Of a stretch of DNA of 22,579 nt, positions 1 to 22,579 are shown piece by piece. This stretch comes from a virus. The notes under the pieces are model-generated. The model did not search any database. It was not told where the DNA came from and saw only the letters and a program-made list of their open reading frames with translations. The position numbers and the translations under genes are program-made. The stretch covers positions 1 through 22,579 of the IMG/VR virus record IMGVR_UViG_3300033571_017587. One strand, written 5' to 3'. Numbering within the stretch: position 1 is the first letter of the stretch; the number at the start of each line of letters is the position of its first letter.

Positions 1-156
1 ATTCTTGAAAAACAAGGACATAGACATGCTTTCAATGGTGAAATTTTAGGTTTCTTTAAAGATTGGAAAACAGATGAAGTCGTTTGGGGAAAAATTCTCC
101 CTGCACTTGAAGAAAAACTTAAAGTGGAACTTACATTTAAAAACGAAGTCCAATGA
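1..156 (+). CDS. C-terminal fragment of an upstream replication-block gene (possibly UvsX/RecA-like)
   Basis: An open frame enters from the left window edge and stops with TGA at 154-156, giving the last 51 residues of a protein (ends FKNEVQ). It is read in the same direction as the helicase gene that follows. In T4 and many marine relatives the recombinase gene uvsX lies just upstream of helicase gene 41. The fragment has a GEILGFF...KTDEVVWGKIL segment loosely like the acidic, Trp-containing tail of UvsX proteins. That resemblance is weak and no ATP-binding motif is in view, so the UvsX suggestion rests mainly on position. The reading frame itself is well supported by its direct run into the helicase gene and normal codon use. 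Confidence 0.6.
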   Translation: MLEKQGHRHAFNGEILGFFKDWKTDEVVWGKILPALEEKLKVELTFKNEVQ

Positions 157-162
157 TGAAAG

Positions 163-197
163 TTATAAATTGCTTTTTGTGTAAATGCAATTTATAA
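163..197 (+). promoter_or_regulatory. 11-bp perfect inverted repeat in the helicase leader
   Basis: TTATAAATTGC at 163-173 is exactly complementary to GCAATTTATAA at 187-197, leaving a 13-base loop. It fills most of the 48-base gap between the upstream stop (156) and the helicase ATG (205), ending 7 bases before that ATG. The stem is AT-rich and lacks a T-tract after it, so it does not look like a standard terminator. A cis-acting RNA hairpin, an RNA-processing site or a protein operator would all fit. Confidence 0.5.
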
Positions 198-204
198 TGT
201 CTTT

Positions 205-1599
205 ATGTCAGAAAAGAATCTATCGTTAGATCTGGATTATTTTGAAAAAATAGTCATGTACAATGCTTTGTTTGATCAAAGTTATCTTGAAACTATTATT
301 GATTTCATTAATCCCATTTTTTTTAAAGATAAAAATATTAATATTGTTTTTACAATTCTTAAATCGTTTTATATTGAAAATAGACACGTTCCAAACGTCA
401 CAGAATTAAAAGCACATCTTGTTACACAAGAACAAAGGGATGCTTTGAAGCAAACTGTTATGTCTTTTAACGGTATTGATAAAAACTACAATAAAGATTT
501 GCTTATAAAAAACACTGAACGATTTTTAAGGGAAAAATCAGTTCTTACGACTGTATTAGAAACATCATTAGATGTTAATTCTGGTCATATTGATAATGCA
601 AAGATACTTAAGAAGTTTGAAAAGGCATGTAGTATATCTTTAATTGATAATATTGGAATGGATTATCTTGAAGATATCGATAAACACTGCTCTGATCTTA
701 ATAAATCATTTAATACCATTTCAAGTGGTTGGAAATGGCTTGATAATCATATTGGAGGTGGATTTATGTCAGAGGGTAGAGCACTTTATGTGTTTTTTGG
801 ACAAACTAATGTTGGTAAATCTATTTTTCTTGGTAATATTGCAACAAATATTCTTAGTCAGAATAAAACAGTTGTTTTAATTTCACTGGAAATGCCTGAA
901 CAGGTTTATGCAAAAAGAATATCCGCACAGTTATCTAAAATACCGTTTGATGATTTAAAACTTCAAGTAGATCCACTTAAAAAGCATCTTAATGAATATA
1001 AAATTAAAAATAGTAAATCTAAATTAATTGTAAAAGAATTTGCACCACAATCTTTAAGTGTTCTTCATTTAAAGACGTATGTAAACAAATTAATACAAAA
1101 GGGAATCAAACCAGACGCTATTATTGTTGATTATATTAATCTTTTGATGCCAGCATCTGCTGGATTAAGTTCATATGAGTCTATTAAAAAAATCACTGAA
1201 GGTTTAAGGGCTTTAACATATGAGTTTAACTGTCCTATAATATCTGCGACACAAGCAAACCGAGCCGCTATTAATACACCACAGCCCGATATGGGAAAAA
1301 CTAGCGAATCTATGGGTTTAGCGCACACTGTCGATGCTATGATGTCAATTTGGACAGAAGAAGGTGATTCTGATCTTGGTATTATTCACATGGGGATAGA
1401 AAAAAACCGTTTTGGCCCTAGAGAAGTATATACACATCTTAATATCGATTATCCAACTCTTGCATTGAGTGAACCCGATCAATCTGTTCAACAATATAGC
1501 GTTAAAAGTACATCACCAAATATGAATATGAATTTAGATGATGAAATTGGTTCTAGTATATCGGATACTTTAAATTTAATTGATAAATTAAGCAATTAA
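205..1599 (+). CDS. 41: DnaB-family replicative DNA helicase (T4 gp41-like)
   Basis: This 464-aa protein is the hexameric 5'-3' helicase that unwinds DNA ahead of the phage replisome. Residues 1-150 form an alpha-helical N-terminal region as in DnaB/gp41, and the RecA-like ATPase core follows. Walker A is GQTNVGKS at 199-206, the helicase motif 1a region includes ISLEMPE near 226-232, and Walker B is IIVDY with Asp309. A Q-containing segment ISATQANRAA downstream matches DnaB motif H3. Length agrees with T4 gp41 (475 aa). The ATG at 205 is chosen because it lies just after an 11-bp hairpin and no earlier in-frame start follows the previous stop. The start lacks a Shine-Dalgarno sequence. It heads a tightly spaced replication operon containing the candidate loader, single-strand binding protein and clamp. 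Confidence 0.93.
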   Translation: MSEKNLSLDLDYFEKIVMYNALFDQSYLETIIDFINPIFFKDKNINIVFTILKSFYIENRHVPNVTELKAHLVTQEQRDALKQTVMSFNGIDKNYNKDLLIKNTERFLREKSVLTTVLETSLDVNSGHIDNAKILKKFEKACSISLIDNIGMDYLEDIDKHCSDLNKSFNTISSGWKWLDNHIGGGFMSEGRALYVFFGQTNVGKSIFLGNIATNILSQNKTVVLISLEMPEQVYAKRISAQLSKIPFDDLKLQVDPLKKHLNEYKIKNSKSKLIVKEFAPQSLSVLHLKTYVNKLIQKGIKPDAIIVDYINLLMPASAGLSSYESIKKITEGLRALTYEFNCPIISATQANRAAINTPQPDMGKTSESMGLAHTVDAMMSIWTEEGDSDLGIIHMGIEKNRFGPREVYTHLNIDYPTLALSEPDQSVQQYSVKSTSPNMNMNLDDEIGSSISDTLNLIDKLSN

Positions 1600-1616
1600 T
1601 CTAAATAAACAACGTA

Positions 1617-2510: not shown

Positions 2511-2800
2511 TTATAACATCCTCTCAGCAACTAGAATCACTCACAAATCCAGCAAATGCTTTAAATATTGAAGAATTTGAAGAGATAACTTTAAAATTTG
2601 GAGCATTTGTCTGTATATGCAAGGGTAAAAAAATGAATTATCTTAATTTTTTAAAATTTTTAGTTGACGATAAGAAGACACAGAAGATATACTTTGCATT
2701 ATTGGGTGAATACAACCTTCAAGGTATCATAAGAGCATATTTAAGCTCAACGCCAAACGTTTATAAAAAAATATTTCGATCAAAGTTAAACAAAAAATGA
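2507..2800 (+). CDS. Small hypothetical protein in the position of T4 gene 33
   Basis: I do not recognise this 97-aa protein by sequence. It is translationally coupled on both sides: its ATG overlaps the DHH gene stop (ATGA at 2507-2510) and its own stop overlaps the next ATG (2797-2800). It is predicted mainly helical, with an acidic N-terminal third (EEFEE) and a basic C-terminus (KKIFRSKLNKK). There is no signal peptide or membrane segment. In T4 the gene directly upstream of 59 and 32 is 33, a 112-aa late-transcription co-activator that bridges sigma-like gp55 and the polymerase clamp. Position and size fit gp33, but I see no gp33-like hydrophobic C-terminal flap-binding tail, so this remains a positional guess. 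Confidence 0.75.
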   Translation: MIITSSQQLESLTNPANALNIEEFEEITLKFGAFVCICKGKKMNYLNFLKFLVDDKKTQKIYFALLGEYNLQGIIRAYLSSTPNVYKKIFRSKLNKK

Positions 2801-3465: not shown

Positions 3466-3468
3466 ATA
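3436..3468 (+). promoter_or_regulatory. Promoter-like sequence directly before the gp32-like gene
   Basis: TTGACG at 3436-3441 is followed after 16 bases by TAATAT (3458-3463), or after 19 bases by TATAAA (3461-3466). The string TATAAATA at 3461-3468 also equals the T4 late-promoter core. Either reading would place the transcript start within a few bases of the ATG at 3473, giving a leaderless or nearly leaderless message. The sequence lies across the end of the upstream gene. AT-rich DNA makes such matches common (TATAAATA also occurs inside the gene at 4456), so confidence is modest. Confidence 0.35.
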
Positions 3469-3472
3469 GATT

Positions 3473-6349: not shown

Positions 6350-7382
6350 CATTGATCCTAGTTTAATAGACCCTTTTTGTATTCAAGCTGGATTAGACCC
6401 GACTCTATTTCCAGTAGGCTCTGCCCAACATTTAGATCTTAATTTTAACATAATACCTTTTTTATGTAATTTATTAAATGCAGTAAATGATGATAACGTT
6501 AGTGGAATATTAGTCGCACCGCCTTCATCGTTTGATATTACCCCATTTACTGATTTTACTGGGCTAACTGGTGTCGGTGATCCAAGAGTTTCTTTAGGAG
6601 AAGTAATGATTCAAACTGGTATAAATTTTATACCAAAAATGATAGCACAAACAGAGGTTAGACAAAACGGGGGAACTCAAATTATAGATAATTATATTTG
6701 TAATTCCGATGGTGTGACGATTAAAAAATCAGAAACACTTCCAGCATTATTATCTTTGGATTTAACTGGTCAAAACCCTTATCAATATGGTGCAATCACA
6801 ATACCGCCTTTAAGTACAACTTATGAAGAACTATTAACTCCCTTTGCACCACAAGATGTTACAAATTTTGTATATGATTATATAAATTCAGCCAGAGAAT
6901 CACACGCTGGTTATTTTGTTAACTTTATAAAAAAATATTTTTCAGATTATAAAGCGGAAGTAAACATATACAAAACATCAGGAACGATGCTTGTTCTTTT
7001 AACAAAAGGAACAACAATTGTGTATTTAAAATATTATGCTGATATTGCAAATAAAGTTGCAGTATTGTTAAATTTAGATGATATGAAATATATCATAGGG
7101 AATAAATCACCAACAAACGGTGCAATATCTTTAGCAATGGCATCCGAAATTCCAAATTATAAAAATATATATTTAAGTGAAACTTTATCAAAAGAACATT
7201 ATGATTTGTTAATGGACAAATATAAAACTACACCCGAATTGGAATATACATATATATTCTCAAATTCAGCACTAGCAATTAAATATTTTTCTGATACGTA
7301 TGGATCAATGTTGACACCCACAGTAAGTACCGTTCCAGTTGTTTATACTTCAGTAACAACAATTGGTGGTATTGTTGTTTAA
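6342..7382 (+). CDS. Hypothetical protein ending the replication block
   Basis: I do not recognise this 346-aa protein. The N-terminal third is rich in Pro, Asp, Phe and Thr with loop-like segments (PPSSFDITPFTDFTG). A strand-rich middle follows (TIKKSETLPALLSLDLTG), then a mixed alpha-beta C-terminal part with VNFIKKYFSDYKAEVNIYK, TMLVLLTKGTTIVYLKYY and a final Thr/Val-rich strand. There is no signal peptide, Walker motif or obvious metal site. It overlaps the preceding gene by 8 bases, so it belongs to the plus-strand operon, and its stop overlaps the stop of the converging spike gene by 4 bases. Its composition is more like a virion protein than a replication enzyme, but that is only an impression. 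Confidence 0.75.
   Translation: MNNIDPSLIDPFCIQAGLDPTLFPVGSAQHLDLNFNIIPFLCNLLNAVNDDNVSGILVAPPSSFDITPFTDFTGLTGVGDPRVSLGEVMIQTGINFIPKMIAQTEVRQNGGTQIIDNYICNSDGVTIKKSETLPALLSLDLTGQNPYQYGAITIPPLSTTYEELLTPFAPQDVTNFVYDYINSARESHAGYFVNFIKKYFSDYKAEVNIYKTSGTMLVLLTKGTTIVYLKYYADIANKVAVLLNLDDMKYIIGNKSPTNGAISLAMASEIPNYKNIYLSETLSKEHYDLLMDKYKTTPELEYTYIFSNSALAIKYFSDTYGSMLTPTVSTVPVVYTSVTTIGGIVV
7355..7379. terminator. Hairpin at the convergent end of the two main gene blocks
   Basis: AACAACAAT (7355-7363) pairs perfectly with ATTGTTGTT (7371-7379) around the loop TGGTGGT. It overlaps the last codons of the plus-strand gene, next to the stop of the minus-strand spike gene, exactly where transcription from both blocks meets. 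A candidate two-way terminator or transcript-end stabiliser; the stem is AT-rich and only a short TTT follows on the plus strand, so efficiency is uncertain. Confidence 0.35.
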
Positions 7383-9475
7383 TCACATCCAAGATTGAAA
7401 TTTGGTGGTGGTATTAAATTACCATCTGGATCAAATACACCATCAGCAGTAACAAAGTTTCCATTATACGCATCTCCATCATTCGGCCCTAGCCCATATT
7501 GCGAATTTCTTCTAGATATTGCTGCTTCATTTCCATTATTACCAAAAGGGTTAATACAAGGTATACATAAATCACCAATACTTCTATGTCCGGGTTTAGA
7601 ACCCATACCAGTTGGTTTTGCTGGTGTTGGTACGTGACTAGGTTGAGGTCTAGTTGCTCTAGCTGTTTTTGCATTTGCAACTTGATGTCCATGATAACTT
7701 GTATAATCATGGGCGTGTTCATCACCAGCATTACCGTGATTATGTGGGAAAGTAAATATTGGTAAAGTTTGACCGGGAACTACGAAAGTATTTGTAAACG
7801 TAACAGGCGCAGGACCATCTTTAGTCATTGCAAACGCAATACCGTTAACCATCAGCGGACTACCAGCAGGAACACCGGGAGGTGCAAAATAAGTCATAGC
7901 ATACCCAGTGGGCAAACCAGTATTATCAACGGGAACTTGTAACATTGCTCTATCATATGCTTCCATAGCCAATGTAAACATTGGAGTAGTTCCGTTAAAA
8001 ATATTTTTTGATAATGTGTTAAATAAATCTCTTCCTGCTGTTTTTACCACATAATCCTTTGTATTAGCTAATGTTGCTTTTAATGCACCTGTTGGATTAT
8101 TCCAATTAGCACCCAAATGAACCGAATTTGAACTGTTAGAAGGTCCAGTAGATACACGTTCGCCGGGGGCTGTAATGTGAGTGCAATGTAAACCACCATC
8201 CAATGATAAAGAACCTTTTATAGCAGTATCACCGCTAACATGCAAAGCACCAGCAACCATAACATTATTCGCTTCCATTCTTATTCCAGTATCACCAGAA
8301 CGATCATTACCATCTATTACAATATTTTTTCCTTTGATTGTAGTAAGATTTTTAGACATTAATGTTAATTCACCTTCAGTTGCTGCTATCGTAGTAACCG
8401 CACCGTTAAATTGAGCCTTACCTGTTGTGTGAACATCAATACCGGGAGATCCAACAGCCAATGTAAATTTTTGAGCAACTCCTAAAAATAAACTACCGGG
8501 GTTTATTAAAGGATCAGTATGTATAACTTGTTTACAATTACCTTTAGTGTGAGGAAAAAGTCCTTTTCCTTCTTCACTATTTAAAAATCCAAAAGGAGTG
8601 GTCATGTTTTCACCTTCAGCGGTTGTTGGTGCTTTGTTCATCGATTTTGGATGACCTACATGTATAGCAACATCAGACATAAATGGACCCATAGCATGAG
8701 TTCCACCACTACCTAAATCTTTTTGATGTTTTTCTAATGTTTTTTGTTTACTTTCTAAATCTTTAGCAGCGGTTTCGTTTGCTTTTTGTATTGCTTCTTT
8801 TTTAGAATAAACCATTCCATTTTTACAACCGGGACTACCACAACCTTTTCCTTGATTTAAAGATGACACCTTTTCACTTGAAAGAAACGGTGTAATTAAC
8901 ATATTTAAATATTTTTGAATTACTTCTAATGGGTAAGGTAAATTTGGTATTGTAAATCTTATAATTTGAAATGCTTTATCAATTAAACATTGATCTTTAT
9001 CTGTTAATATTTTACTAGAACACGTTGGACATGGAACCTGTGATCCTTTTTCTTTTTTAATTGTATCGACTTTTTTCTTATCAATATCATGTGTAGTATC
9101 TTGTAAACTTTTAGCAGCCGTTACTTGCTTTGATGTTGCTTCCCCAACTTGTTTTGTTTCATTACCATGTACATAACTATGTTTATCCCCTTGAGCTACC
9201 GTTTGAGAATCGCCCCTTATTGAAGTAAAAAGATTTTGACCAGCACCAATATACAAATCAGCATTTGATTTTATTGTTAAACCTCCACCTATAAGTTGAA
9301 CTAAACTTTTATATTTGTCTTGTAATAAAACATAAGACATATCATCTTGAATAGATGAACCAGTAGCAGTGTTAATAAAAATATTACTTTTTATTTCCAA
9401 GCCACCAGCTTCAGCAACTAATGAACTGGTTTGTTTTGAACCGGATAAACTATCTAATGTTGTTGATGCTGCCAT
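7379..9475 (-). CDS. Baseplate central-spike-like structural protein
   Basis: This 698-aa protein looks like the puncturing spike that in T4 forms the C-terminal beta-helix of gp5. Residues 20-110 hold short, regularly spaced beta turns (GGGLTIKSNADLYIGAG, GDSQTVAQGDKHSYVHGNE) typical of VgrG/gp5 helices, and a second such zone runs about 330-440 (LMSKNLTTIKGKNIVIDGND). Between them is a helical, charged insert with a zinc-ribbon-like pair, CPTC at 149-152 and CGSPGC at 212-217. Residues 578-597 are His-rich (HNHGNAGDEHAHDYTSYHGH), suggesting a metal-binding tip-like region. The C-terminus adds CIPC and a DPDGN turn. It follows the gp5-like gene by 25 bases, so OB-fold hub and spike appear to be separate proteins here. 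There is no signal peptide. Tail-tip or fibre protein is the alternative. Confidence 0.7.
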   Translation of the reverse strand: MAASTTLDSLSGSKQTSSLVAEAGGLEIKSNIFINTATGSSIQDDMSYVLLQDKYKSLVQLIGGGLTIKSNADLYIGAGQNLFTSIRGDSQTVAQGDKHSYVHGNETKQVGEATSKQVTAAKSLQDTTHDIDKKKVDTIKKEKGSQVPCPTCSSKILTDKDQCLIDKAFQIIRFTIPNLPYPLEVIQKYLNMLITPFLSSEKVSSLNQGKGCGSPGCKNGMVYSKKEAIQKANETAAKDLESKQKTLEKHQKDLGSGGTHAMGPFMSDVAIHVGHPKSMNKAPTTAEGENMTTPFGFLNSEEGKGLFPHTKGNCKQVIHTDPLINPGSLFLGVAQKFTLAVGSPGIDVHTTGKAQFNGAVTTIAATEGELTLMSKNLTTIKGKNIVIDGNDRSGDTGIRMEANNVMVAGALHVSGDTAIKGSLSLDGGLHCTHITAPGERVSTGPSNSSNSVHLGANWNNPTGALKATLANTKDYVVKTAGRDLFNTLSKNIFNGTTPMFTLAMEAYDRAMLQVPVDNTGLPTGYAMTYFAPPGVPAGSPLMVNGIAFAMTKDGPAPVTFTNTFVVPGQTLPIFTFPHNHGNAGDEHAHDYTSYHGHQVANAKTARATRPQPSHVPTPAKPTGMGSKPGHRSIGDLCIPCINPFGNNGNEAAISRRNSQYGLGPNDGDAYNGNFVTADGVFDPDGNLIPPPNFNLGCD

Positions 9476-9500: not shown

Positions 9501-11129
9501 TTATCCATGTGCTCCTATGTTAGATGGTTCATATACTTGACCCATATAAATTGGTCTTTGTGAACTACCCCCTTCAAACGTCACCCATACTTTTGAACCA
9601 ACGGCTGGCGTTGAAAAAACACCAACAGGTGCTCCATATCTTGACATGTTAACACTACCATAAGCGTTCATACCTTGATTTGTTGTCCTTTGAACCAAAG
9701 CACCAGAACTCGCTGCTGTTAATGGAGCACCTTCACCTCTCATTCTCGCCATGGTTGTACCCGCAAATGATCCTCGTTTTGTAACTGTATTATCAAGACC
9801 ATCAATTGAATTATTTCTAGTTATTTGAATTTCCGCCATTGATATTGCGGTATTAGCGGCAAGCTCTGGTCTTGATTGTAAATCATTAACGCCCATTCCA
9901 CTATATCCAGCATACACCGATGTATCAAGAACACTAGTTGACCATGCACCCCAAGAACCACCCGGATCATTTACAGTATCAGCACCGGATGCTGCAACCT
10001 TACCACCTTGTTCCGCTAATGCCAATCTCCACATAAAATCCGCCCATTGATTTGGATCTTTAGTGTTTGATACTCCATATTTTGCTGCTTCTGATGGATT
10101 TAAATTTGCTGATAGTAAAGGTGAACATTTCATTCTTTCAACAGCATAACTTTTAAATGATGCTTCATCCATTACACCATTATTAGAAGCAATTGTCATT
10201 CCTTTGGAATCCATTTCACGGTTTTGAGCTACTGATAATGCTTTAGCTTCAGAAAGACTCATCGGAGAACCGCTTGAATTTCCAGCACACGCACTACCGG
10301 AACCAATTGGATCTTCATTTCCATTAAATGTTCCTTCTTTATTATTAACACCATCATCAGAAACTCCTCTATTATCACCATTTACAGCTTGAAGCGATTG
10401 AGCGGAATTATCATTACCATAGTTTGTGTTTACAGTTCCCGGATTTAAATGTAGTAAACTCATTACACCTTCTGGTGTATTAATTCTAACAACAGTTCCA
10501 CCGCCACCAGAATCTTCAAACGTTCCAACATAAGTTGCGCCGTTTTGTAATTGAATAGATGATCCAGTTGGGGTTCTAAAATCAATACCTTTGTGTGGAC
10601 TTTTTCTAAAACTTTCAGTAGCACCATAAGCGGAAGAAACACCAAAACTACTTGGTGATTTTCCGTCTATTAAAAGATATTTATTTGCATCATTTGCTGA
10701 AATAGGACGTTTATCACCCCATCTAACATCCAAATGTGGACCCGTTGACCTACCACTATTTCCAGTTTTTGCTAAAACGCCGGGAGTTACACCAGCATTT
10801 GAACCAGAACCAAGAGCACGATCTGTCGGTATTGTAGTTGCTTGTTGAGTATCCGTTGCAACGGGAGCACCCGTACCACCACCCCAGACAGGAGTAGATG
10901 GCCTTGCCCACGGTAAAACCCCCAACACTCTATCTAAAACATCAGGTGAAAACGGATCAGAAGATGCAGTTTTAAATGATATATCATCAAGTTTATCGTT
11001 CCATCCTTTAAAAAGTGGACCAGTTTTACCGGGAACTATTAATTTAACTCTACCTAAACCATCGGGATCTTGTGCATCTAAAACCAACCCAACGTATGTT
11101 CCATAAAGTAAATGACTATCACGAGACAT
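9501..11129 (-). CDS. 5: gp5-like baseplate hub protein with inserted wall-degrading domains
   Basis: This 542-aa protein appears to be the OB-fold part of the tail-puncturing hub. The first OB half is residues 8-75 (YGTYVGLVLD, DGLGRVKLIV, GVLPWARP). The fold resumes at about 500-535 with GSKVWVTFEGG and QRPIYMGQVY, the usual end of gp5/VgrG N-domains. About 400 residues lie between. These include a candidate M23/LytM peptidase with TGPHLD (His132, Asp134), HKGID (His179, Asp183) and LLHL (His227), and a lysozyme/transglycosylase-like region with Glu373, GSWGAWS at 391-397 and a helix ELAANTAISMAEIQI. T4 gp5 also carries a lysozyme, but after the OB domain. Inferred role: local digestion of peptidoglycan during DNA injection. 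The gene sits upstream of the spike gene and downstream of a 546-aa structural gene; 6 bases separate it from the latter. Confidence 0.8.
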   Translation of the reverse strand: MSRDSHLLYGTYVGLVLDAQDPDGLGRVKLIVPGKTGPLFKGWNDKLDDISFKTASSDPFSPDVLDRVLGVLPWARPSTPVWGGGTGAPVATDTQQATTIPTDRALGSGSNAGVTPGVLAKTGNSGRSTGPHLDVRWGDKRPISANDANKYLLIDGKSPSSFGVSSAYGATESFRKSPHKGIDFRTPTGSSIQLQNGATYVGTFEDSGGGGTVVRINTPEGVMSLLHLNPGTVNTNYGNDNSAQSLQAVNGDNRGVSDDGVNNKEGTFNGNEDPIGSGSACAGNSSGSPMSLSEAKALSVAQNREMDSKGMTIASNNGVMDEASFKSYAVERMKCSPLLSANLNPSEAAKYGVSNTKDPNQWADFMWRLALAEQGGKVAASGADTVNDPGGSWGAWSTSVLDTSVYAGYSGMGVNDLQSRPELAANTAISMAEIQITRNNSIDGLDNTVTKRGSFAGTTMARMRGEGAPLTAASSGALVQRTTNQGMNAYGSVNMSRYGAPVGVFSTPAVGSKVWVTFEGGSSQRPIYMGQVYEPSNIGAHG

Positions 11130-13712: not shown

Positions 13713-15362
13713 TTAATAATTACTATCTTCTTCAGGCCATAATTCAGAATAACTATCAACTTTATTAGCTACGATTTCGTTTATATATGTTTCTTGTGTA
13801 AACAAATGAGTCACATGTGTAATTAACCATTGTCCTAAAAATCTATCGTCAAACGGATTTACATCACCAGACGCAGTACGATCAATAAATATAAATTTTC
13901 CGGGAGTTCTTATTGTTAATCCTAAAGTTTGAAAAGAAATAGATTGATTTAAAAATATAGCATCTAAAATCATTTGATGTAAAGGAGCATCATGTAAAGA
14001 ATAAGGTCCGGTTATAGAAAATTCATTTTTAGTCATTTGTCCGGTTGTTTTTGTTTTATTTAAACTTATTAATATTTGTGGTTTTTGATTACCATTGGAT
14101 TTTTTAAAATTATATAAACCAAGTTTAGCCAATTCTTTTAATTTCTCAATTACTTTTTTTGCAGTATTATTTTTCTTTTTTAAATTAAAAAACCCAGTAT
14201 GTTCATCAAAATAACATAATGGAGAATTTAATATTCTAGCATCGTCTAAAGATACCATAGGAGAATAATTATATTTTGTTATTTTTGAAGCAACTATAGA
14301 TGTAAAATTTTTAGTTTGTGTTCCAATTGAAGCATCGGCTCTTGGTATATACGGTGTGCTATTACTGGTATTTCCCGTTGTTTCGGATGAATCGGGAGCT
14401 AAACCATCTTCCAAAATTAATCTTTCCACTTGTTCATCTGTAGATTTTTTAAAATACTCTGACAGTGAAATTAAATGCCATCCTTTATCTTCACTATTTC
14501 TACCATAATCAAGTAATACCGGAAAATCATCTGAAGATTTACAATGTGATAATATATAAAACATATCATCCAAAGCCGTAGAATTTGCACTCGGATGAAA
14601 TGAAACTTTATTGTTAGAATCACCAACATCCCATTGTTGCGTTTTATCAAAATCAATACTAGGCTTATCGATACTTCCATTTTGATCAAATCCAATTTTT
14701 ATTTTTTCCATCGTATCACCATTAGTTGAAACTAAAGTTAATAAATCCTTTAAAGCATCATTGGGATTTATAGCAGCTTGTGAGTCTTTTAAAAATCTTG
14801 CTTGCGTTCCTAATCTTTTAGCCGACATGGTTGCAGATGACCATTCTAAATTTTTTTCTTTTAAAATTTGACATCTTTCGTCAATTAACATATACATCTT
14901 TTTCTTGATTTGAACATTTGGTGTTGGTAAATCTTGCATATCATAAACTACAAAATCATAGTCTAATTCCCAATATTTTTTTTCAAATTTAGCCGAACTA
15001 CCAGCACTTTTAATGGTTCCGTCTAAATTCATGTCAACGGGATATATTTTAATATGTATTCTATTTCTACCATCAGTTCTGTCTATATAAGGAGCTTTAA
15101 CATCTGTATTGTTTGGATCTGATGTTATTTTTTGAGCACCTCTTGCAAAAATTTCAAAATCAGAATTAAAAACTATTTCAGCTTTAGTAATCCAAGTAGA
15201 TAAACCTTCATGAATTTTAAGAGAATCAACAAAGAAAAAAGGAACATTTAATGGTTTTTGACCTTCAATTTGATTATACAATGATATTTCAATATAATAA
15301 TATTGATCTCTTACTTGATGATAAGTTCCTTTTTGATCTGTGTTGTTCATAGTATCAGCCAT
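13713..15362 (-). CDS. Baseplate hub protein, gp27-like candidate
   Basis: This 549-aa protein is beta-rich and large, compatible with the gp27/gpD family of tail-hub proteins that link tube and spike. Early residues hold a tube-like beta domain (YYYIEISLY, FFFVDSLKIHEGLSTW, ITKAEIVFN). The end has GQWLITHVTHLFTQETYINEI, matching the family's closing pattern in which a strand 'G.w.I..v.H.f....y...i' completes the hub ring. A Ser/Thr/Pro-rich linker lies near residues 320-345. T4 gp27 is 391 aa, so this version has insertions. The start at 15362 (ATGGCTGAT) follows the preceding stop by two bases; an in-frame TTG at 15371 was discarded because ATG is used throughout. It lies downstream of the tube-like gene. 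Hub identity is likely but not secure. Confidence 0.7.
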   Translation of the reverse strand: MADTMNNTDQKGTYHQVRDQYYYIEISLYNQIEGQKPLNVPFFFVDSLKIHEGLSTWITKAEIVFNSDFEIFARGAQKITSDPNNTDVKAPYIDRTDGRNRIHIKIYPVDMNLDGTIKSAGSSAKFEKKYWELDYDFVVYDMQDLPTPNVQIKKKMYMLIDERCQILKEKNLEWSSATMSAKRLGTQARFLKDSQAAINPNDALKDLLTLVSTNGDTMEKIKIGFDQNGSIDKPSIDFDKTQQWDVGDSNNKVSFHPSANSTALDDMFYILSHCKSSDDFPVLLDYGRNSEDKGWHLISLSEYFKKSTDEQVERLILEDGLAPDSSETTGNTSNSTPYIPRADASIGTQTKNFTSIVASKITKYNYSPMVSLDDARILNSPLCYFDEHTGFFNLKKKNNTAKKVIEKLKELAKLGLYNFKKSNGNQKPQILISLNKTKTTGQMTKNEFSITGPYSLHDAPLHQMILDAIFLNQSISFQTLGLTIRTPGKFIFIDRTASGDVNPFDDRFLGQWLITHVTHLFTQETYINEIVANKVDSYSELWPEEDSNY

Positions 15363-15364
15363 AA

Positions 15365-15955
15365 CTAACAAGATGCTTGATTGACATCTTTTAATAATTC
15401 AACTTCTAACTGATTAAAAACAAAAGTAACATTTGAATTAATTTCAGATGGATCTTGATTATTAAAATTTATTTCACTTAAACTGATTGGAAATGCGTTA
15501 GAATAAGAAAAAGAAATAATTTTATTATTATATTCATCAATGCCATAAATTTTAAAATTCGAAGTATAATTAGACATTGGATTAATTAATTTTTCTCCAT
15601 TATCAACAATGTTATGTGCAGTTGTTTTAGATGTTTTATAATTATTTAACAAATTAAGCCAATTCCAAATAGCCCAATAGTTTTTATATCCATTATCAAT
15701 TAAAAATTTTATTTGCAACGGGTCATATGCTGGTCTTGAAAAAGATGAAGTTTTATAAAATTGTCCACCAAAAGGAACATCCACCGCAGGTACATTGATA
15801 GCAGGTACAGGTGAGCCTATTATTGATAATTGTAAAGGGTCAATTTTAAAATTATCACTAATAATTCTATCATAATTCTTTTTCAGAGCTAATGGAATAT
15901 CCAAAACTAAAATGAATTTATCACTACGTGATCTATTTAACGGTGTTTGTAACAT
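15365..15955 (-). CDS. Tail tube protein-like (gp19 family)
   Basis: This 196-aa protein resembles T4-like tail-tube proteins (T4 gp19 is 163 aa), which stack as hexamers around the DNA channel. Supporting features are a strand with DKFILVLDIP, a VPAVDVPFGGQFYKTSSF segment, the hydrophobic helix WAIWNWLNLLNN, and a terminal strand series (FSYSNAFPISLSEINF, SNVTFVFNQLEVELL) usual for these folds. In related phages a gp19 paralogue sits near the hub genes as a tube-initiator-like protein, so it could be either the main tube subunit or such a paralogue. It follows the terminase gene by nine bases, and the hub gene begins two bases after its stop. Compact and without signal peptide. Confidence 0.75.
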   Translation of the reverse strand: MLQTPLNRSRSDKFILVLDIPLALKKNYDRIISDNFKIDPLQLSIIGSPVPAINVPAVDVPFGGQFYKTSSFSRPAYDPLQIKFLIDNGYKNYWAIWNWLNLLNNYKTSKTTAHNIVDNGEKLINPMSNYTSNFKIYGIDEYNNKIISFSYSNAFPISLSEINFNNQDPSEINSNVTFVFNQLEVELLKDVNQASC

Positions 15956-15964: not shown

Positions 15965-17854
15965 TTAAATTAGAATTGCTGGTCGCCATTCTTCTCCATT
16001 ATATAATTTATCCTTATTATCTTTATTGTCTTTATCGATTGTTTCTACCATTGGTGGTTCAGGACCAACATTTCCCCAGTTTGAAAGCCAACGTTGAAGC
16101 TGTAATGACTCTTGTTCAATTGTTATCGGTGCTTTCATGTCAAATTTACCCACAAAACTAACATTATTGTTAATAATATTATTAGTTTTTTTAAAATTTG
16201 AAACTTGACCGTAAAAAATTGGACTTTTTTTAATTAAATCGCTATTATCAACAAGAGGTTTAATTTTTAAAGGTCTACCTTGATCGTCAGTTTCAATAAT
16301 ATTGAAATATTTTGGTGCTATAGACGGATCTAAAATAAATAAACCCCATATTAAAGATAAAACTCTATCATCCAAATCTTCATCTTTTCTTTTACTAAAT
16401 GTAAAATTAGGATGTCTAACAAAATTAGTAAGTTCCAATAAAGTATCCATGTCATATAACGCTAAAGCTTTCAAACTATTAGCCCAATATCTAAAATTCG
16501 TAACGCCCCTATAGCGAGTATTGGTGTGATTGTGAATACCAAATCTTCCTTCTTTGTTGTAATGTTTACTCATACCGTCAAACTGATATGTAACAACTGA
16601 TTCATAATTGTGCGTGTGACACAATACGTCTAATACTTGTTGACCATTATTGTTGTTTTCAACAAGAATGGGTGGTCTACCCCAATCGTTAAGAATGCCC
16701 ATTAATCTTGTTCCAAAATGAAAAGGACTCATTTGATTTGTTGAATAAATTGCAACTTGTTTTATATTTGTAAGATCTGAAAAATCTAAAATTTGTGCAA
16801 CTGTATTGCTTCTTCCTATACCTTCACTGACATCAACGCCAATAGCATAAAAACTTTCGGGGTTTGGTTCATTAAAAACTTTATAATCACCATTATCCAT
16901 AACAAGTATGGGGTCTTTGCATTGTTCTTTTAATTTTTCTAATAATTCAGGATCAATTGCGGTTTTACCTTTGTCGTGAAATACATTTCCAAACTCTTGA
17001 TCAAAATCTTCTTTTGATCCAATAGCATCTATAGCATCAAGTTTCCAAGCTTCGTCTCTACCGGGAACTTCCCACCAATCAACTCGTTCTAAATGCCATT
17101 CGCTATTTGATTCTTGTGCTTGTTTATAAAGATCATAAAATTTATTATCTACACCATTAGGCGTACTAATAATCACAAGTTGTGATTTCTTAGAAGATGA
17201 AATAATAGGAATAGCCGATTTCCACAATTCTTTCATTAAATCATTAGGACAGTGTGCCATTTCATCTATAATAAGAAGATTACTTGAACTACCACGAGGT
17301 CCAGCACTTGATGTTGAACAAACCGTAATAGCCGAATCGTTTTCTAATTGAAAACCATCTTTTCTCCACGATTTAACGGATGGTTTCATCCAAATTGGAA
17401 GCTGTTCAAATGCCATTTTAATACGAGCAAAAATTTCTTTTGCGGTATCTTCTTTATTTGCAACAATAGTGATCCTCTTATCGTTCTGAAAACATACCAT
17501 CCACAGCGCATAAATGGTGATTGTAGTTGTTTTTCCACTTTGACGGCTAGATAAGACAACATTAAATCTATTAGTAGAAAATGCTTTCAAAAGACGTTTT
17601 TGATACTTTCTAAGTTCTATTTTTTGTTTTCCATCATCAAGAGTTGTGATGAAAAAATAATTTTCAGCGAAATGTAATATTTTTTTATTACATGTTTTAA
17701 TCTCCTCAATCATTTGAGGAGTCCATTTCATTTGAGCGTTACCTCTTAATAGATTTTCATTGCCTTTAAAGAAATTACCATCTACTAATATGTCTTCTGT
17801 TGAAATATTAGATAAATCCAATTCATTATTTTCATCTTTTTTCTTCCTTGGCAT
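15965..17854 (-). CDS. 17: Large terminase subunit (T4 gp17-like packaging ATPase/nuclease)
   Basis: This 629-aa protein is the motor that pumps DNA into the prohead and cuts it. The N-terminal ATPase has Walker A SRQSGKTT at 103-110 and Walker B LLIIDE at 193-198 with catalytic Glu198, and the coupling motif ISTPNG near 229-234. The C-terminal RNase H-like nuclease has Asp341 (GVDVSEG), Glu399 (ILVEN) and the Asp pair at 495-496 (DDRVLSL). Length is close to T4 gp17 (610 aa). In T4, gene 17 lies beside 16 and 18; here it is surrounded by baseplate and tube genes, and no small terminase is recognisable. The start at 17854 is 17 bases from a divergent plus-strand gene. All catalytic residues appear intact. 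Confidence 0.95.
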   Translation of the reverse strand: MPRKKKDENNELDLSNISTEDILVDGNFFKGNENLLRGNAQMKWTPQMIEEIKTCNKKILHFAENYFFITTLDDGKQKIELRKYQKRLLKAFSTNRFNVVLSSRQSGKTTTITIYALWMVCFQNDKRITIVANKEDTAKEIFARIKMAFEQLPIWMKPSVKSWRKDGFQLENDSAITVCSTSSAGPRGSSSNLLIIDEMAHCPNDLMKELWKSAIPIISSSKKSQLVIISTPNGVDNKFYDLYKQAQESNSEWHLERVDWWEVPGRDEAWKLDAIDAIGSKEDFDQEFGNVFHDKGKTAIDPELLEKLKEQCKDPILVMDNGDYKVFNEPNPESFYAIGVDVSEGIGRSNTVAQILDFSDLTNIKQVAIYSTNQMSPFHFGTRLMGILNDWGRPPILVENNNNGQQVLDVLCHTHNYESVVTYQFDGMSKHYNKEGRFGIHNHTNTRYRGVTNFRYWANSLKALALYDMDTLLELTNFVRHPNFTFSKRKDEDLDDRVLSLIWGLFILDPSIAPKYFNIIETDDQGRPLKIKPLVDNSDLIKKSPIFYGQVSNFKKTNNIINNNVSFVGKFDMKAPITIEQESLQLQRWLSNWGNVGPEPPMVETIDKDNKDNKDKLYNGEEWRPAILI

Positions 17855-18620: not shown

Positions 18621-19730
18621 TTATGGGTTTCCTGTTGCACGATTTACTATGTCTCCTAGAAAATCACCTGTTGCGTTAGCAGCATTAGTAAGTGTTTCTG
18701 CAATTGCACCACCATCAGTAACTGAAATTTTAGAACCCCCCATTGTACCAGCAAATACATTTGAACTTTGTGATAACAGATCGGTAAAAGTTATTGATAC
18801 TCTATATGCTTCAGGCATAATAATATTATTTGCACCATATCCATACCAATCACTCATAGCTCTTGTCGTACCAATGCTTTCTATTTTTAACTCACTAACT
18901 ACTGCTGCTGGCATATAAACACCGCCAATGGCATAAGCGTCAACTTCATAAATTTTCGGTGGTATAAATGTCATTAACGATGTTCTTGTTTTTAAATTTT
19001 GAAAGGTAAAAAGTTGAACAAAACTAAAATGTCTAAATGCTGATTTTAAATCTAATGTATTATATAAAGGAAACGATAATGTTATAGATTGCTGTGAAGT
19101 TGACTTATATTCTTTTGTATCTTCAAATCCAAATCCCGGAGTTAAAGCACCCATTACAGCACCACCCACAGCACCAATTAAAGCAGAACCTGCATTGTTA
19201 TTTTGACTAGATCCGCTAGATTGAGCACCAAAACTTTTAGCTAGAGACGAAAGACCCTGTGCATCATCCCAAGTATTACTAATTGTTCTCAATGGTTGTC
19301 CGCTGTTTATTAACCAAGGAAAATTATATTTAAAACCCGTGGGTTTAGCGGAATATAATTTTAAAAATGTATCTAAATTTTTTGCATTACTAGCACCAAC
19401 AACAGATCCAGCAGTACTTAAAACTGCACCAGTTTGTGTTAATAAATTTGATAATTGCGTTGCCCATGTTCCAAATTGAAGTTCTTTTTCTACACAGAAC
19501 ACAGAAGGAACTTCGTCTTTATTTCCCGTGTTAGACCAATACATGTCTTTTGATACATCCACAAGACCACTTCCGGTTTTTTCTAATACCGTGTATGGTG
19601 AACTATGAACTCCCAAGAAACTCATTTCTTTGTCTGTAGCTTTAAAATACTGTGCTGAACCACCAGAACTTCCACCAAAACTACCGTTTACACCACTAGC
19701 CCCATCTTGTGTTATAGCATCATTTGACAT
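18621..19730 (-). CDS. Baseplate tail-tube cap protein, gp48/gp54-like candidate
   Basis: This 369-aa protein has the length of T4 gp48 (364 aa) and lies directly after the tape-measure-like gene, as gp48 follows gp29 in T4. Residues 1-30 are Gly/Ser-rich. The mid part includes the strand SITLSFPLYNTLD. The C-terminal part has PPKIYEVDAYAIGG, IESIGTTRAM and PEAYRVSITFTDLLSQSSNVF; the last pattern (PEA..v.itF..L...s.n) is usual for tube-cap and tube-initiator proteins. Residues 180-202 form a glycine-zipper-like hydrophobic stretch (GSALIGAVGGAVMGALTPGF), which is odd for a tube protein and may be a linker or a membrane-active segment. It starts just after an 11-bp tandem repeat. The structural-family call is by pattern only. 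Confidence 0.7.
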   Translation of the reverse strand: MSNDAITQDGASGVNGSFGGSSGGSAQYFKATDKEMSFLGVHSSPYTVLEKTGSGLVDVSKDMYWSNTGNKDEVPSVFCVEKELQFGTWATQLSNLLTQTGAVLSTAGSVVGASNAKNLDTFLKLYSAKPTGFKYNFPWLINSGQPLRTISNTWDDAQGLSSLAKSFGAQSSGSSQNNNAGSALIGAVGGAVMGALTPGFGFEDTKEYKSTSQQSITLSFPLYNTLDLKSAFRHFSFVQLFTFQNLKTRTSLMTFIPPKIYEVDAYAIGGVYMPAAVVSELKIESIGTTRAMSDWYGYGANNIIMPEAYRVSITFTDLLSQSSNVFAGTMGGSKISVTDGGAIAETLTNAANATGDFLGDIVNRATGNP

Positions 19731-19750
19731 ATAAAATACTTATAAAATAC
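19730..19750. repeat. 11-bp tandem repeat filling the intergenic gap
   Basis: TATAAAATACT (19730-19740) is followed immediately by TATAAAATACG (19741-19751 region), so the 21-base gap between the tape-measure-like and tube-cap-like genes consists of two copies differing in the last base. The first copy overlaps the start codon of the gp48/54-like gene. It could be a simple duplication of the translation leader. Confidence 0.5.
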
Positions 19751-19751
19751 G

Positions 19752-21926
19752 TTAAATATAACCCCAATTCCTATTGTTTGAATTATTGGTATATGTCATT
19801 CTAGTTTCAAAGTTAACATCTCTTACTGGTTTAAGAAGATAATCTTTAATTCCCGTATTAGAACTTGGTGATTGTTGTGTTTGATTTATAACAGTAGTGC
19901 TTTGTGTGTTATTTTGTTTTTCAGAGTTTTTCTGTAATGTAGCTGTTAAATTATCCAAACTAGTTATTATTTTTTTGTTATCTTGACTAAGTGCAACGTT
20001 TTGAGCGACTACTTGATTTGAATTTTCTTCCGGTTTTGGTTCGTATTTTACGGATGGTGCTGGCATTACTGGTCCTACTGGTGTAATGACGGGTGTAATT
20101 TTTGGTTCTTTTTCTTTATTAGGCATCAATGCTTTTGAATATCTTTCATCTAAAACTTTACGTTCTTCTGGTGAAGCTTGTTGATATTTTGGTGAACTTC
20201 TCCATATTTCTTGTGGTGTTCTGTTATCTTCGGGACCCATAGCCTGACCGTCATTATAAGTCTTCATCAAATCTATTGTTTGTTCGCCTAATTTGTGAGT
20301 ATCTATTTTCTCCGCTACCCAATCAACAGCTTCTCCTATTTTACCAACCCAACCCAATGTTGGTATTTTACCAACCCAACCAAGTAGTGTTCCAAAAAAG
20401 CTTACAAGTTCAGATATTAAACTACCTAAACCACCAAAAAATCCAGCAATAACAGCTGTAGCTTTTTGTATCGGACCCAAAGCATCATCGTTTATAACCG
20501 AAAAAAATGTTTTAATCCCTGTTACAAAACCATCAATTAATTGTATAACTGGTATGGATATAAATCTAGCCAACCATTTTAAAGGCGCAATAAACATCTC
20601 TAATACTTTTCCAAGAGGACTAAAAAATTCAAAAAAACCTTGAATTGGTCCTTTAATTTTTGTTAATTGTTCTCCAAGATTTTTTACAAATTTGCTTACA
20701 TTTGATAATGGACCTTCTTCTTTAAACATATTACTAATATTAGTAAACCAACCTGAAACACGAGTTCTAAGATCTGTTATTGTTTGCCATGATGTTTTTA
20801 AAGCATTAGACATCCTAGCGTACATTCCTTCGGTTTTTACTAAAGATTCACCATAAGCATTTTGTGCTGTTGTTAATTTTGCAAAATTCTTTTCAAACCC
20901 CAGTTTTTCAAAAAAACTATTTTTAAATTTTGAAATTTCATCTAAAACACCGTTTTTAAATTTTGTAATACCTTCTGTTGTCGCTTTAATCGTTTCGTCT
21001 ATCCATTTATTAATTCCAAGTTTTTCTCCAATTTTAACAAACGGATCTATTAAAAATCTTTTAAGAGCTACACCAACTTGTTCAAGTTGTTTTCCAATTT
21101 TAGTAAAAATTTCACCAATAGTTATCACCATCCCTTTAACACTTTGATAAATTTTATATAATTTTTCGCCCATCCATACTATATCGGCTAATGCTAAAAG
21201 TAATATACTTGCGAGCCAACCGCTACCGCCGCCTTTAAAAGAATCTTTAATGTTTTTAATAATACTTGCAATTCCTTTATCCATGTTTTCGGTAAACGAA
21301 CTTAATGATTTATAGATAGGATCTAAAAGTGTTCTTAATATTTTTATACCTTCAGGATGGAAACTTACCCTTAATATTTGCTCTCCTATGTTTTTTTGCT
21401 CACCCGTATCATTTTGTTTGTTGATTTTACCAAAAAGATTATTAATATTATTTGGTAAATTTTTAAAAACTTCAGATAATTTAAAAAACATATCATCCTT
21501 TTTTCCATTCTCTTCGGTTTTTTCGTTTATTTTAATCTTTTTAACCCCATCGGGTAATAAATCCAAAATAGGAGATTTTTTTAATTTTTCAACATTCGTT
21601 TTTTCGTTTTTATAATTTTCGTCTTCAAGTTTTTGAAGTTTTTCTTCTCTTTCTTTTATTTCTTTATCTCTTTTTAATTTTTTTTCATAGTCAGCTATTT
21701 CTTTATCTTCTATATCTTTGATAAAACGTTCTCTAGCTTCACGGAGTTTTCTAGAACGTTGTTCAATCTCAGTTTCACCCTTTAAAGCCGCTTTTTTGAG
21801 TTCTATTAAAGCTAAATTTTGTTTATTAACATAATCTTGTTCTCTTTTATATTTTTCTGCCATCGCTTGAATAGCCGCAAGATCAGCCTCGTTAGGCTGT
21901 GTACCCGTAAACGTATTAAATGACAT
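19752..21926 (-). CDS. Tape-measure / gp29-like tail protein
   Basis: This 724-aa protein has tape-measure architecture. Residues about 21-115 are an intensely charged coiled coil (ERFIKDIEDKEIADYEKKLK). A hydrophobic helix follows at 237-251 (GWLASILLLALADIVW region), then long amphipathic helices with repeated Phe/Ile/Trp spacing through about 600, and a Gln/Asn/Ser-rich tail near 670-705 (NNTQSTTVINQTQQ). T4 gp29, the length-determining hub protein, is 590 aa and is followed by gp48, as this gene is followed by a gp48/54-like gene. A 9-codon duplication encodes LGWVGKI twice near residues 515-530. The start codon at 21926 lies in a perfect hairpin. There is no signal peptide. Tape-measure proteins diverge fast, so identification rests on architecture and order. 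Confidence 0.72.
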   Translation of the reverse strand: MSFNTFTGTQPNEADLAAIQAMAEKYKREQDYVNKQNLALIELKKAALKGETEIEQRSRKLREARERFIKDIEDKEIADYEKKLKRDKEIKEREEKLQKLEDENYKNEKTNVEKLKKSPILDLLPDGVKKIKINEKTEENGKKDDMFFKLSEVFKNLPNNINNLFGKINKQNDTGEQKNIGEQILRVSFHPEGIKILRTLLDPIYKSLSSFTENMDKGIASIIKNIKDSFKGGGSGWLASILLLALADIVWMGEKLYKIYQSVKGMVITIGEIFTKIGKQLEQVGVALKRFLIDPFVKIGEKLGINKWIDETIKATTEGITKFKNGVLDEISKFKNSFFEKLGFEKNFAKLTTAQNAYGESLVKTEGMYARMSNALKTSWQTITDLRTRVSGWFTNISNMFKEEGPLSNVSKFVKNLGEQLTKIKGPIQGFFEFFSPLGKVLEMFIAPLKWLARFISIPVIQLIDGFVTGIKTFFSVINDDALGPIQKATAVIAGFFGGLGSLISELVSFFGTLLGWVGKIPTLGWVGKIGEAVDWVAEKIDTHKLGEQTIDLMKTYNDGQAMGPEDNRTPQEIWRSSPKYQQASPEERKVLDERYSKALMPNKEKEPKITPVITPVGPVMPAPSVKYEPKPEENSNQVVAQNVALSQDNKKIITSLDNLTATLQKNSEKQNNTQSTTVINQTQQSPSSNTGIKDYLLKPVRDVNFETRMTYTNNSNNRNWGYI
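20337..20381. repeat. 18-bp direct repeat inside the tape-measure-like gene
   Basis: TATTTTACCAACCCAACC occurs at 20337-20354 and again at 20364-20381, exactly 27 bases (9 codons) apart. On the coding strand it gives two copies of LGWVGKI. It is a recent in-frame duplication or a preserved protein repeat. Confidence 0.85.
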
Positions 21927-21951
21927 ATATACTACTTATTGTAGTATATAT
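21925..21951. promoter_or_regulatory. 11-bp perfect hairpin covering the tape-measure-like start codon
   Basis: ATATATACTAC (21925-21935) pairs fully with GTAGTATATAT (21941-21951), loop TTATT. It occupies nearly the whole 29-base gap between the gp26-like stop (21956) and the tape-measure-like ATG (21926-21924). On the minus-strand message the A and U of the start codon are inside the stem, so folding would hide the start; a translational switch or processing signal are plausible. Confidence 0.5.
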
Positions 21952-21955
21952 ATTT

Positions 21956-22579
21956 TCAGTTTAAAAACAACACACTGTCCACACTGATGGTTTTTACATA
22001 TTCATCATGTTTAACCGTTAAAACTTCATCCAATTTAGACTTCCACTCAGTAATAGTTTCTAATACCTTTTGAACAAGAACACTTGGAAGTTTTTCTATG
22101 ATTTTTATTCTCTGTTCAAATTTAAGATCGGTTAAAATTACCTCTTCTTCATTTATCCAAATTTTGTTGATATATTTTGAAAGTTCGCCCAAAAAAGCAT
22201 TAGTAATTAAAATTTTAACATCTTCGTTTGATTTAATGTCTTCGGTTTTTTTATTACCTTTAAATTGATTATCATATTCTACTTCAGTTTTAATTGTGGG
22301 TGGCATAATTTCAGCTTTTAAAACAAATGAACTATTATGTGATTCTAAAACTATGGTTTCGGGTGATTTATAGGATTTAAATTTATTTAAAATATCTTTA
22401 ACATCATATTTATTGGAAATGTTTTTTGCATCATCAAAAATTACATTAATTGATTCTGATATTTGTCCTTTTAAAGCTATTGCAATAGAAGTTTTATCTG
22501 ATAGTGTTAAACTGTCAATTAAAGCATCATCACCATTAACTATATTAGTTTTTAAAATATTATAAAACGCAGTTATAAA
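21956..22579 (-). CDS. gp26-like baseplate hub subunit, open at the window end
   Basis: The minus-strand frame ending at 21956 stays open to the right edge, giving at least 207 residues, so the start lies at or beyond 22579. An internal ATG at 22306 is not the start, because the frame continues upstream without a stop. The beginning in view contains ITAFYNILKTNI, VNGDD and LTLSDKTSIAIALKGQIS, which resembles the 'D+..i.l.LR' step of the T4 gp26 baseplate family (T4 gp26 is 208 aa). The end has helices with KIIEKLPSVLVQKVLETITEW. It is the first visible gene of the late block and is followed by the tape-measure-like gene. Family membership is a moderate-confidence reading; a tape-measure chaperone is an alternative. 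Confidence 0.65.
   Translation of the reverse strand, partial: FITAFYNILKTNIVNGDDALIDSLTLSDKTSIAIALKGQISESINVIFDDAKNISNKYDVKDILNKFKSYKSPETIVLESHNSSFVLKAEIMPPTIKTEVEYDNQFKGNKKTEDIKSNEDVKILITNAFLGELSKYINKIWINEEEVILTDLKFEQRIKIIEKLPSVLVQKVLETITEWKSKLDEVLTVKHDEYVKTISVDSVLFLN

Follow-up and report, generated by a model that had tools for sequence, protein, structure and literature searches.

The viral DNA analysed here, a stretch of 22,579 nucleotides that makes up IMG/VR virus record IMGVR_UViG_3300033571_017587 (positions 1 to 22,579; hereafter ‘the window’), belongs to a T4-like myovirus, as seen from its replication, baseplate and terminase genes, and it is devoid of the pentanucleotide CCWGG. 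The word usage of this phage and its relatives is best explained, with high probability, by selection through host restriction that is relieved in those relatives whose DNA is predicted to be modified. Restriction selection as such is well supported, because the depletion survives a null model that preserves proteins and codon usage, because sites are exchanged synonymously at conserved Pro-Gly pairs and because the depletion is absent from relatives with DNA-modification genes.

CCWGG is missing from the window and from its parent contig

Neither CCAGG nor CCTGG occurs in the window (0 each; GC content 31%), as an initial annotation made from the letters alone had noticed. A maximal-order Markov model predicts 13.0 copies of CCWGG, and permutation of synonymous codons within each gene, a shuffle that keeps both the protein and the codon usage, predicts 12 (standard deviation 2; Poisson probability of 0 given 12, 6e-6). 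By the same shuffle CCSGG (CCCGG/CCGGG), rightly called frequent, is seen 14 times instead of 5 (standard deviation 2). Genes were greedy open reading frame (ORF) calls rather than the output of a gene finder. As an order-2 Markov model over-flags words such as CTNAG, which the codon shuffle flagged less or never in several genomes, we relied on codon shuffles. The window is contained, at 100% identity, in a 72.5-kb contig of IMG/VR (positions 24710-47288 of that contig, G001), which is likewise free of the site (0 vs 27 expected by codon shuffle); CCWGG at its expected rate elsewhere in the genome, the outcome that the annotation had named as speaking against its reading, was thus not seen in these 72.5 kb.

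The loss is mirrored in the choice of proline codons. All 14 Pro-Gly pairs in the window genes use CCC or CCG and none CCA or CCT, as reported, although the recount splits them into 11 CCC and 3 CCG rather than 10 and 4; their distribution over five genes was given correctly (Table 2). Codon choice differs for prolines in other contexts, 245 of the 309 remaining ones across the ORF calls being CCA or CCT, and in the spike-labelled gene these two codons serve 31 of 36 prolines not followed by glycine (18 of 23 in the earlier, partial count). GATC (66 copies) and GGCC (5) are present, as stated. The conclusion drawn from them, that palindromes are not generally avoided, needs amending: CGCG is also missing from the window (0 vs 6 expected), and between 4 and 15 palindromes are excluded in each of 11 relatives (Table 1). 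The called genes of the window contain no CTGCAG and no CAGCTC.

Several words are avoided by relatives of the window phage

Relatives were collected by terminase scans of viral contigs (26 loci, then the best 80 of 114, partly overlapping), and contigs were retrieved, nine at first and six later; CheckV reports no completeness for them, so they may be incomplete. We call a word excluded if it is seen at no more than 0.15 of an expectation of at least 8, as derived from 12 codon shuffles per genome. The counts for 14 contigs fall into three sets (Table 1): contigs free or nearly free of CCWGG; contigs depleted of CCGG in which CCWGG is partly depleted, with G030 in between; and three contigs, bearers of a dpdA-like gene described below, in which CCWGG stands at expectation. 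The table leaves out G003 (56.6 kb; CCWGG 3 vs 26 expected) and the shorter loci; the set to which these belong comprises 51 sequences and includes several with intermediate counts (CCWGG seen/expected 4/14 in L110 and 5/19 in L142, for example).

Table 1. Word counts (seen/expected by codon shuffle) and excluded palindromes (number of those tested) in 14 contigs.
Contig	CCWGG	CCGG	Excluded palindromes
G023 (170 kb)	0/71		10/89
G027 (226 kb)	0/114		13/98
G033	0/40		4/87
G001	0/27		4/84
G002	0/38		6/82
G016	3/66		11/93
G010	53/74	1/94	15/96
G013	20/32	1/38	6/84
G021	63/96	31/106	14/97
G018	19/35	27/55	7/87
G030	22/97	123/168	13/96
G028 (dpdA)	151/145		1/94
G029 (dpdA)	137/124		0/96
G031 (dpdA)	76/70		0/89

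CTGCAG is absent from all 11 avoiders, and CAGCTC occurs once or not at all in ten of them (4/17 in G033). GATC hardly departs from expectation (seen/expected 0.94-1.02, except for 0.86 in G033), and CCSGG in G023 reaches 62 copies against 13 expected. Because multiple words are excluded (CCWGG, CTGCAG, CAGCTC, CGCG and others), a single CCWGG-cutting system does not suffice; the annotation's appeal to restriction stands, its single system does not, and several restriction specificities are likely to lie behind the avoidance.

Some peculiarities of individual sequences are recorded here for completeness. Tenacibaculum phage PTm1, a named phage of Bacteroidota (L149, 1-50000), has no GATC, CTGCAG, GGATCC or CAGCTC at all (raw counts). 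Contig G021 (32% GC) contains 18 kb at 40-49% GC at about 39-57 kb (L048, L049), which would be a foreign insertion or a chimeric assembly, and ARAGORN called a transfer-messenger RNA of 458 bases on it (L050:5196-5653, minus strand; tag ADEEMLLAA) that may be a false call.

Pro-Gly pairs reveal synonymous exchange and a conflict between two words

Conserved columns were compared between nine sequences free or nearly free of CCWGG and four CCGG avoiders, in pairs that share sequences and hence are not independent. Pro-Gly columns combine CCC or CCG in the first set with CCA or CCT in the second in 232 of 241 cases, and the same pairing is found for 770 of 7593 other conserved prolines. Of the one-step departures from CCWGG, 234 of 274 affect the middle base when the four CCGG avoiders serve as reference; against six non-avoiding loci, 194 of 287 affect the middle base and 42 of 287 the second base. 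The cytosines are thus mostly retained, which argues against decay of 5-methylcytosine as the chief cause.

Since CCN-GGN always holds either CCWGG or CCGG, whichever third base is taken, avoidance of both words collides at this dipeptide. In G010, G021, G013, G018 and G030 taken together, CCWGG was seen 172 times in the Pro-Gly frame (193.2 expected) and 5 times in the other two frames (140.4 expected). Outside the Pro-Gly frame it is seen 0 times against 141.3 expected in G027, G033, G023, G016, G001 and G002, and 127 times against 93.7 in G028, G029 and G031. With off-frame CCWGG nearly gone, the CCGG avoiders evidently shun CCWGG too, save at positions where the protein leaves them only the one word or the other. 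The contrast between frames is large; its cause, we infer, is two enzymes in conflict.

There is also a hint at the protein level. The ratio of observed to expected Pro-Gly in proteins is 0.26-0.52 in the 11 avoiders and 0.80-0.92 in the three non-avoiders, and the retention of dipeptides from non-avoiders in orthologs drops from 0.57 to 0.37 for Pro-Gly. As Gly-Pro is also low and its retention falls alike (0.61 to 0.42), a loss of Pro-Gly from the proteins is only suggestive.

Non-avoiding relatives carry predicted genes for 7-deazaguanine synthesis and transfer

Eight genes of at least 90 residues are common to G028 and G029 and missing from the 11 avoiders. Three are without any match, and the other five are QueC, a glutamine amidotransferase, QueE, QueD and a member of phrog_19058 (in G028, QueC matches PF06508 with E 3.3e-58, QueE phrog_2076 and QueD phrog_2389). 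Among 40 records, many of them fragments (G031 is a 91-kb contig), QueC was found in G028 and G029, and QueD and phrog_19058 in G028, G029 and G031; QueE is present in these three by blastp. The phrog_19058 protein, whose family comes with no stated function, gives a weak sequence signal of tRNA-guanine transglycosylases (TGT), and its AlphaFold2 model (predicted local distance difference test score 90.5) has archaeosine TGT 1iq8 as best PDB match (E 7.2e-9). By fold it thus resembles such transglycosylases and is probably DpdA-like, and from this gene complement G028, G029 and G031 are predicted to have 7-deazaguanine DNA.

In these three contigs queE is flanked by gp46 and 084, dpdA by polymerase and thyX, and queD by uvsX and gp41 (for gp46, thyX, uvsX and polymerase we take the labels to be those of T4-type phages). 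No queE, dpdA or queD was found at these syntenic places in the 11 avoiders, where other small genes may sit; weak tblastn matches (E 0.03-1) in this search were taken as chance. As the window starts in uvsX and gp41 follows, the short interval between them is the queD-less place (Table 2). Nor were dpdA or que genes found in the 72.5 kb of the parent contig, an incomplete genome.

Further observations concern these genes and their bearers. G028 has a second QueD-like gene (G028:C1:133369-133803, minus strand), and ACATGT (3 vs 28 expected) in the same contig is the sole excluded palindrome among the three dpdA-bearing contigs. L132 (38.7 kb), which the terminase tree places as sister to avoider G030 (support 96/95), contains CTGCAG 11 times against 3 expected under the order-2 model; QueC, QueD and phrog_19058 were not found in this fragment, which would offer an extra contrast if its genome were complete.

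The association between genes and words extends to further loci

Scans with DpdA-like and uvsX queries (each keeping the best 80 of 124, 234 and 87 relatives) gave 222 loci (L214-L435), of which 58 that span pol-uvsX-gp41 were kept at identity cut-offs after removal of near-duplicates; 10 of them derive from the 14 contigs. Both dpdA and queD are present in 15 loci and neither in 43. The 48 loci from elsewhere were examined for words that had been defined on the 14 contigs, a test that is not blind, as word counts for some contigs and dpdA loci were known beforehand (one of the 48, L299, derives from G003, known earlier). In the 12 further dpdA loci CCWGG was seen/expected 106/99.4 times, CTGCAG 36/27.9 and CAGCTC 43/35.0; the corresponding values for the 36 further loci without dpdA are 65/192.3, 1/52.9 and 3/61.6. 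With the two hexamers pooled, the counts are 79/62.9 with dpdA and 4/114.5 without, and at least one copy of either occurs in all 12 of the former and in 3 of the 36 latter. The separation is weaker for CCAGTC (26/31.4 with dpdA, 35/63.1 without) and for GCAGGC (3/21.1 without).

In a tree of seven proteins from the 14 contigs, G028 pairs with avoider G030 (support 85/84), and G029 and G031 with avoider G033 (98/98), such that the presence of dpdA needs at least two changes, be they gains or losses. The polymerase tree, built from the 51 of 58 loci with a polymerase of more than 500 residues, likewise has two as the fewest changes. Its clade of 18 rows that holds dpdA also holds five rows without the gene: three of them, L321, L370 and L373, sit within a fork supported at 90, and L357 and L364 stand at the clade base, at a position that is not firm. 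These five rows together have one CTGCAG or CAGCTC against 22.0 expected, while L357 and L364 retain CCWGG (11/9.9 and 4/4.8).

The hosts are probably Bacteroidota

Shine-Dalgarno-like motifs precede 7-10% of ATG starts in six contigs (5-7% in shuffled sequence), as compared with 84% (22%) in T4 and 5% (3%) in Tenacibaculum phage PTm1. Among the best 80 of 181 relatives of the phage alpha subunit of ribonucleotide reductase (RNR-alpha) there are 32 cellular loci of at least 56% identity, 28 of which are Bacteroidota by title; the other four are Paceibacterota, Falkowbacteria, SR1 and a metagenome-assembled genome (MAG) of Lokiarchaeota, and the remaining 48 loci are 38-41% identical. In light of the scarce Shine-Dalgarno-like motifs, the RNR-alpha kinship and a published T4-like genome with queE, queD and a predicted Bacteroidetes host (see below), the host is probably a member of the Bacteroidota. 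CCWGG had been offered as a clue to the host; what emerged is a probable phylum only, reached by way of motif scarcity and reductase kinship instead. TAnnTTTG, a promoter motif of Bacteroidota, exceeds its shuffled frequency upstream of genes in one of four genomes (30 vs 15.8 in G021), and an alignment-based comparison with two peptide patterns identified no terminase relative among 222 stretches matched in GTDB contigs. Matches resembling clustered regularly interspaced short palindromic repeats (CRISPR) reached E 1e-4 or better in 12 of the 397 genomes searched, with E 3.2e-7 for the best one (85% over 53 bases). They are short and imperfect and resemble AT-rich chance, and hence were not used as host evidence.

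The highest RNR-alpha identity to the phage among the 80 loci listed (73%) comes from L463, the contig titled Lokiarchaeota MAG, and might reflect phage DNA inside that MAG. Two ribonucleotide reductase genes of G023 (L035:14301-17209, plus strand) share 83-95% identity with their counterparts in G016, G013, G018, G001 and G002, contigs whose terminases are 69-87% (G001: 100%) identical to that of the window, and are unmatched in G010 and G021; recent exchange is possible.

Restriction selection and alternative explanations

According to the explanation that we favour, hosts, probably Bacteroidota, would cleave DNA that is not modified at a number of short words that include CCWGG, and lineages with fewer sites would survive, the sites being replaced mostly through synonymous codons, including CCA/CCT by CCC/CCG at Pro-Gly. 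Where hosts also cut CCGG, no safe Pro-Gly would be left and CCWGG would be retained almost solely there. In relatives with QueD, QueE, QueC, the DpdA-like transglycosylase and the glutamine amidotransferase, 7-deazaguanine DNA would be shielded, so that purging relaxes and nearly all words stay near expectation. A broader proposal, that the group switches between two heritable answers (7-deazaguanine DNA, or a genome purged of numerous words, among them as many as 15 palindromes), that word usage changed along with the at least two changes of the gene set in the seven-protein tree, and that colliding words such as CCWGG and CCGG may cost the proteins Pro-Gly, seems to us evenly poised between right and wrong.

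A number of observations sit uneasily with restriction selection relieved by modification. Non-palindromic words such as CAGCTC are excluded too, and avoidance, in the available text of Rusinov et al. (2018, PMC6286503), concerns mainly orthodox Type II sites. CGCG is partly depleted in the dpdA-bearing contigs as well (36/63, 34/55 and 9/20), as is GCAGGC in the 12 further dpdA loci (7/14.9), and a word may be missing from an individual dpdA locus (CCWGG from L217, 0/3.6; CTGCAG from L300, 0/4.3), while L356 (12/13.2), like L357 above, keeps CCWGG without dpdA. Methyltransferase-like matches occur in 4 of 15 contigs. Among the forced pairings of the seven-protein tree one has support of 85/84 and the direction of change is not settled; all 13 dpdA rows of the polymerase tree fall into the one 18-row clade, and its starred branches force only one change. 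Finally, no convincing CRISPR-like DNA match was obtained in 4 and then 397 genomes (one family). The methyltransferase-like matches, of the N6/N4 type (L087, L088, L089 and L090 in G021, G018, G016 and G013), cover part of the profile and have one or two stops within the matched stretch.

With the dpdA rows confined to a single clade of the polymerase tree, the contrast could in part be due to hosts that do not have such enzymes. That hosts explain all of it, dpdA bearers infecting hosts without these systems and the modification genes being irrelevant, is nevertheless unlikely in our view: the five rows without dpdA in that very clade still avoid CTGCAG and CAGCTC, and Shine-Dalgarno motifs are scarce (0.07-0.15) with and without dpdA alike. 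Moreover, hardly any word is excluded in the dpdA contigs (2 of 1974, 1 of 1939 and 3 of 1766 non-palindromic hexamers; palindromes in Table 1), such that their hosts would have to be nearly without Type II restriction. We give very little credence to a mutational loss, in which a methylase acts on CCWGG, a Dcm-type site, and deamination of 5-methylcytosine turns it into CTWGG or CCWAG. It would fit the frame ending in TGG, where 27 of the 52 partners of a CCWGG in non-avoiders read CTTGG, and the second-base differences from the non-avoiding loci, but most one-step changes are at the middle base, CCSGG is in excess in both G023 and the window, and other words are missing too; moreover, CTWGG (13) and CCWAG (23) in the window do not exceed the four other one-step neighbours (22-35; no model fitted).

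Self-protection from a phage-encoded nuclease that destroys host DNA at CCWGG would suit the total absence of the site over 226 kb. It is nonetheless highly improbable, as 4-15 palindromes are excluded together and word usage tracks the DNA-modification genes; a C5-methylase was not found in 26 records, nor was there a match to MvaI/BcnI (15 records) or EcoRII-C (16), searches in which the control genomes gave none either. A codon or tRNA preference at Pro-Gly without any restriction, conceivable in so far as most of the expected CCWGG falls at Pro-Gly, hardly merits belief, given the complete lack of off-frame CCWGG in the six CCWGG-free or near-free contigs and the existence of relatives with the opposite choice of Pro-Gly codons. 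Taken together, the observations favour restriction selection, relieved by base modification.

Features of the window

Table 2 lists the features of the window that bear on this analysis; the labels spike, hub, gp27-like and tube-cap are those of the initial annotation.

Table 2. Features of the window with their Pro-Gly codons and associated sites.
Feature	Position	Strand	Remarks
Whole window, part of a T4-like myovirus	1..22579		word counts
uvsX (RecA-like recombinase), 3' end including stop codon	1..156	+	uvsX = 23678-24865 of G001
uvsX-gp41 junction	157..204		position of queD in dpdA-bearing relatives by synteny; queD not found
gp41-like DNA primase-helicase	205..1599	+	tblastn matches annotated DNA primase/helicase
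Spike	7379..9475	-	7 of 14 Pro-Gly, all CCC
CCGGG sites in spike-labelled gene	7590, 7773, 7875, 8163, 8442, 8496, 8829	+	
Hub	9501..11129	-	4 Pro-Gly: 2 CCC, 2 CCG; sites 9961, 10438, 10780, 11029
gp27-like	13713..15371	-	1 Pro-Gly, CCC; site 13900
Terminase large subunit	15965..17854	-	1 Pro-Gly, CCC; site 17061; query for relatives
Tube-cap	18621..19730	-	1 Pro-Gly, CCG; site 19135

Relation to known systems

The phenomenon is of a known kind. That phages avoid restriction sites, and that such avoidance is lacking in hydroxymethylated coliphages, has already been published: Rusinov et al. (2018, PMC6286503) describe it as a widespread feature of non-temperate double-stranded DNA (dsDNA) phages, with 2.4% of sites avoided by five coliphages that have a hydroxymethylase and 55.8% by four relatives that do not. 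That 7-deazaguanines protect phage DNA is likewise described in the accessible portions of Hutinet et al. (2019, PMC6884629) and of the report on phage 9g (PMC5567051), whose DNA resisted about 71% of the tested Type II enzymes wholly or largely. Literature searches, which mostly did not extend to subscription journals, showed among the papers listed no report of a Pro-Gly conflict between CCWGG and CCGG and none of an avoidance switch linked to 7-deazaguanine within a phage group, the available parts of PMC8056088 and PMC8594841 included; this silence is a weak sign of novelty.

The setting is nonetheless informative, in that modification and purging look like alternatives. A missing site becomes a comparative test, in which modification genes on the same phage core go with an unpurged genome, and where avoided words collide at one dipeptide, codon choice may show which of the enzymes weighed more heavily. 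Taken as a list, the excluded words are a candidate fingerprint of the restriction systems met by an uncultured phage, one that could be compared with the methylomes of hosts. Apparent codon preferences of phages may in some cases be restriction scars, and if the loss of Pro-Gly is true, restriction would shape protein sequence as well.

Among named phages, Sinorhizobium phage phiM9 and cyanophages are among the best terminase relatives of the window (in the 40 of 2497 records listed), yet they and others are only about 30-37% identical. TARA_ERS488589_N000003, a T4-like genome of 180 kb and 32% GC with queE (gene162), queD (gene164) and a predicted marine Bacteroidetes host (PMC7198788, in whose available text no word starts with ‘restriction’), resembles the dpdA-bearing relatives by this description, not by sequence comparison. 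Akin to the DpdA/Que systems in the sources at hand, these relatives have QueD, QueE, a glutamine amidotransferase, a protein of TGT fold and, in G028 and G029 but not in the third contig, QueC, a likeness of genes alone; unlike in those systems, the amidotransferase is a gene separate from QueC and the TGT-fold protein is the phrog_19058 member with its weak TGT signal, and unlike the DpdA/Que phages, the window phage shows none of these genes in its 72.5 kb. As in the phages that the available text of Rusinov et al. covers, short and mostly palindromic words are lost nearly completely from dsDNA phages; as opposed to its coliphages, the modification here is predicted to be 7-deazaguanine and the contrast lies within one uncultured group, in which the genes are missing from syntenic sites and CCWGG and CCGG come into conflict at Pro-Gly.

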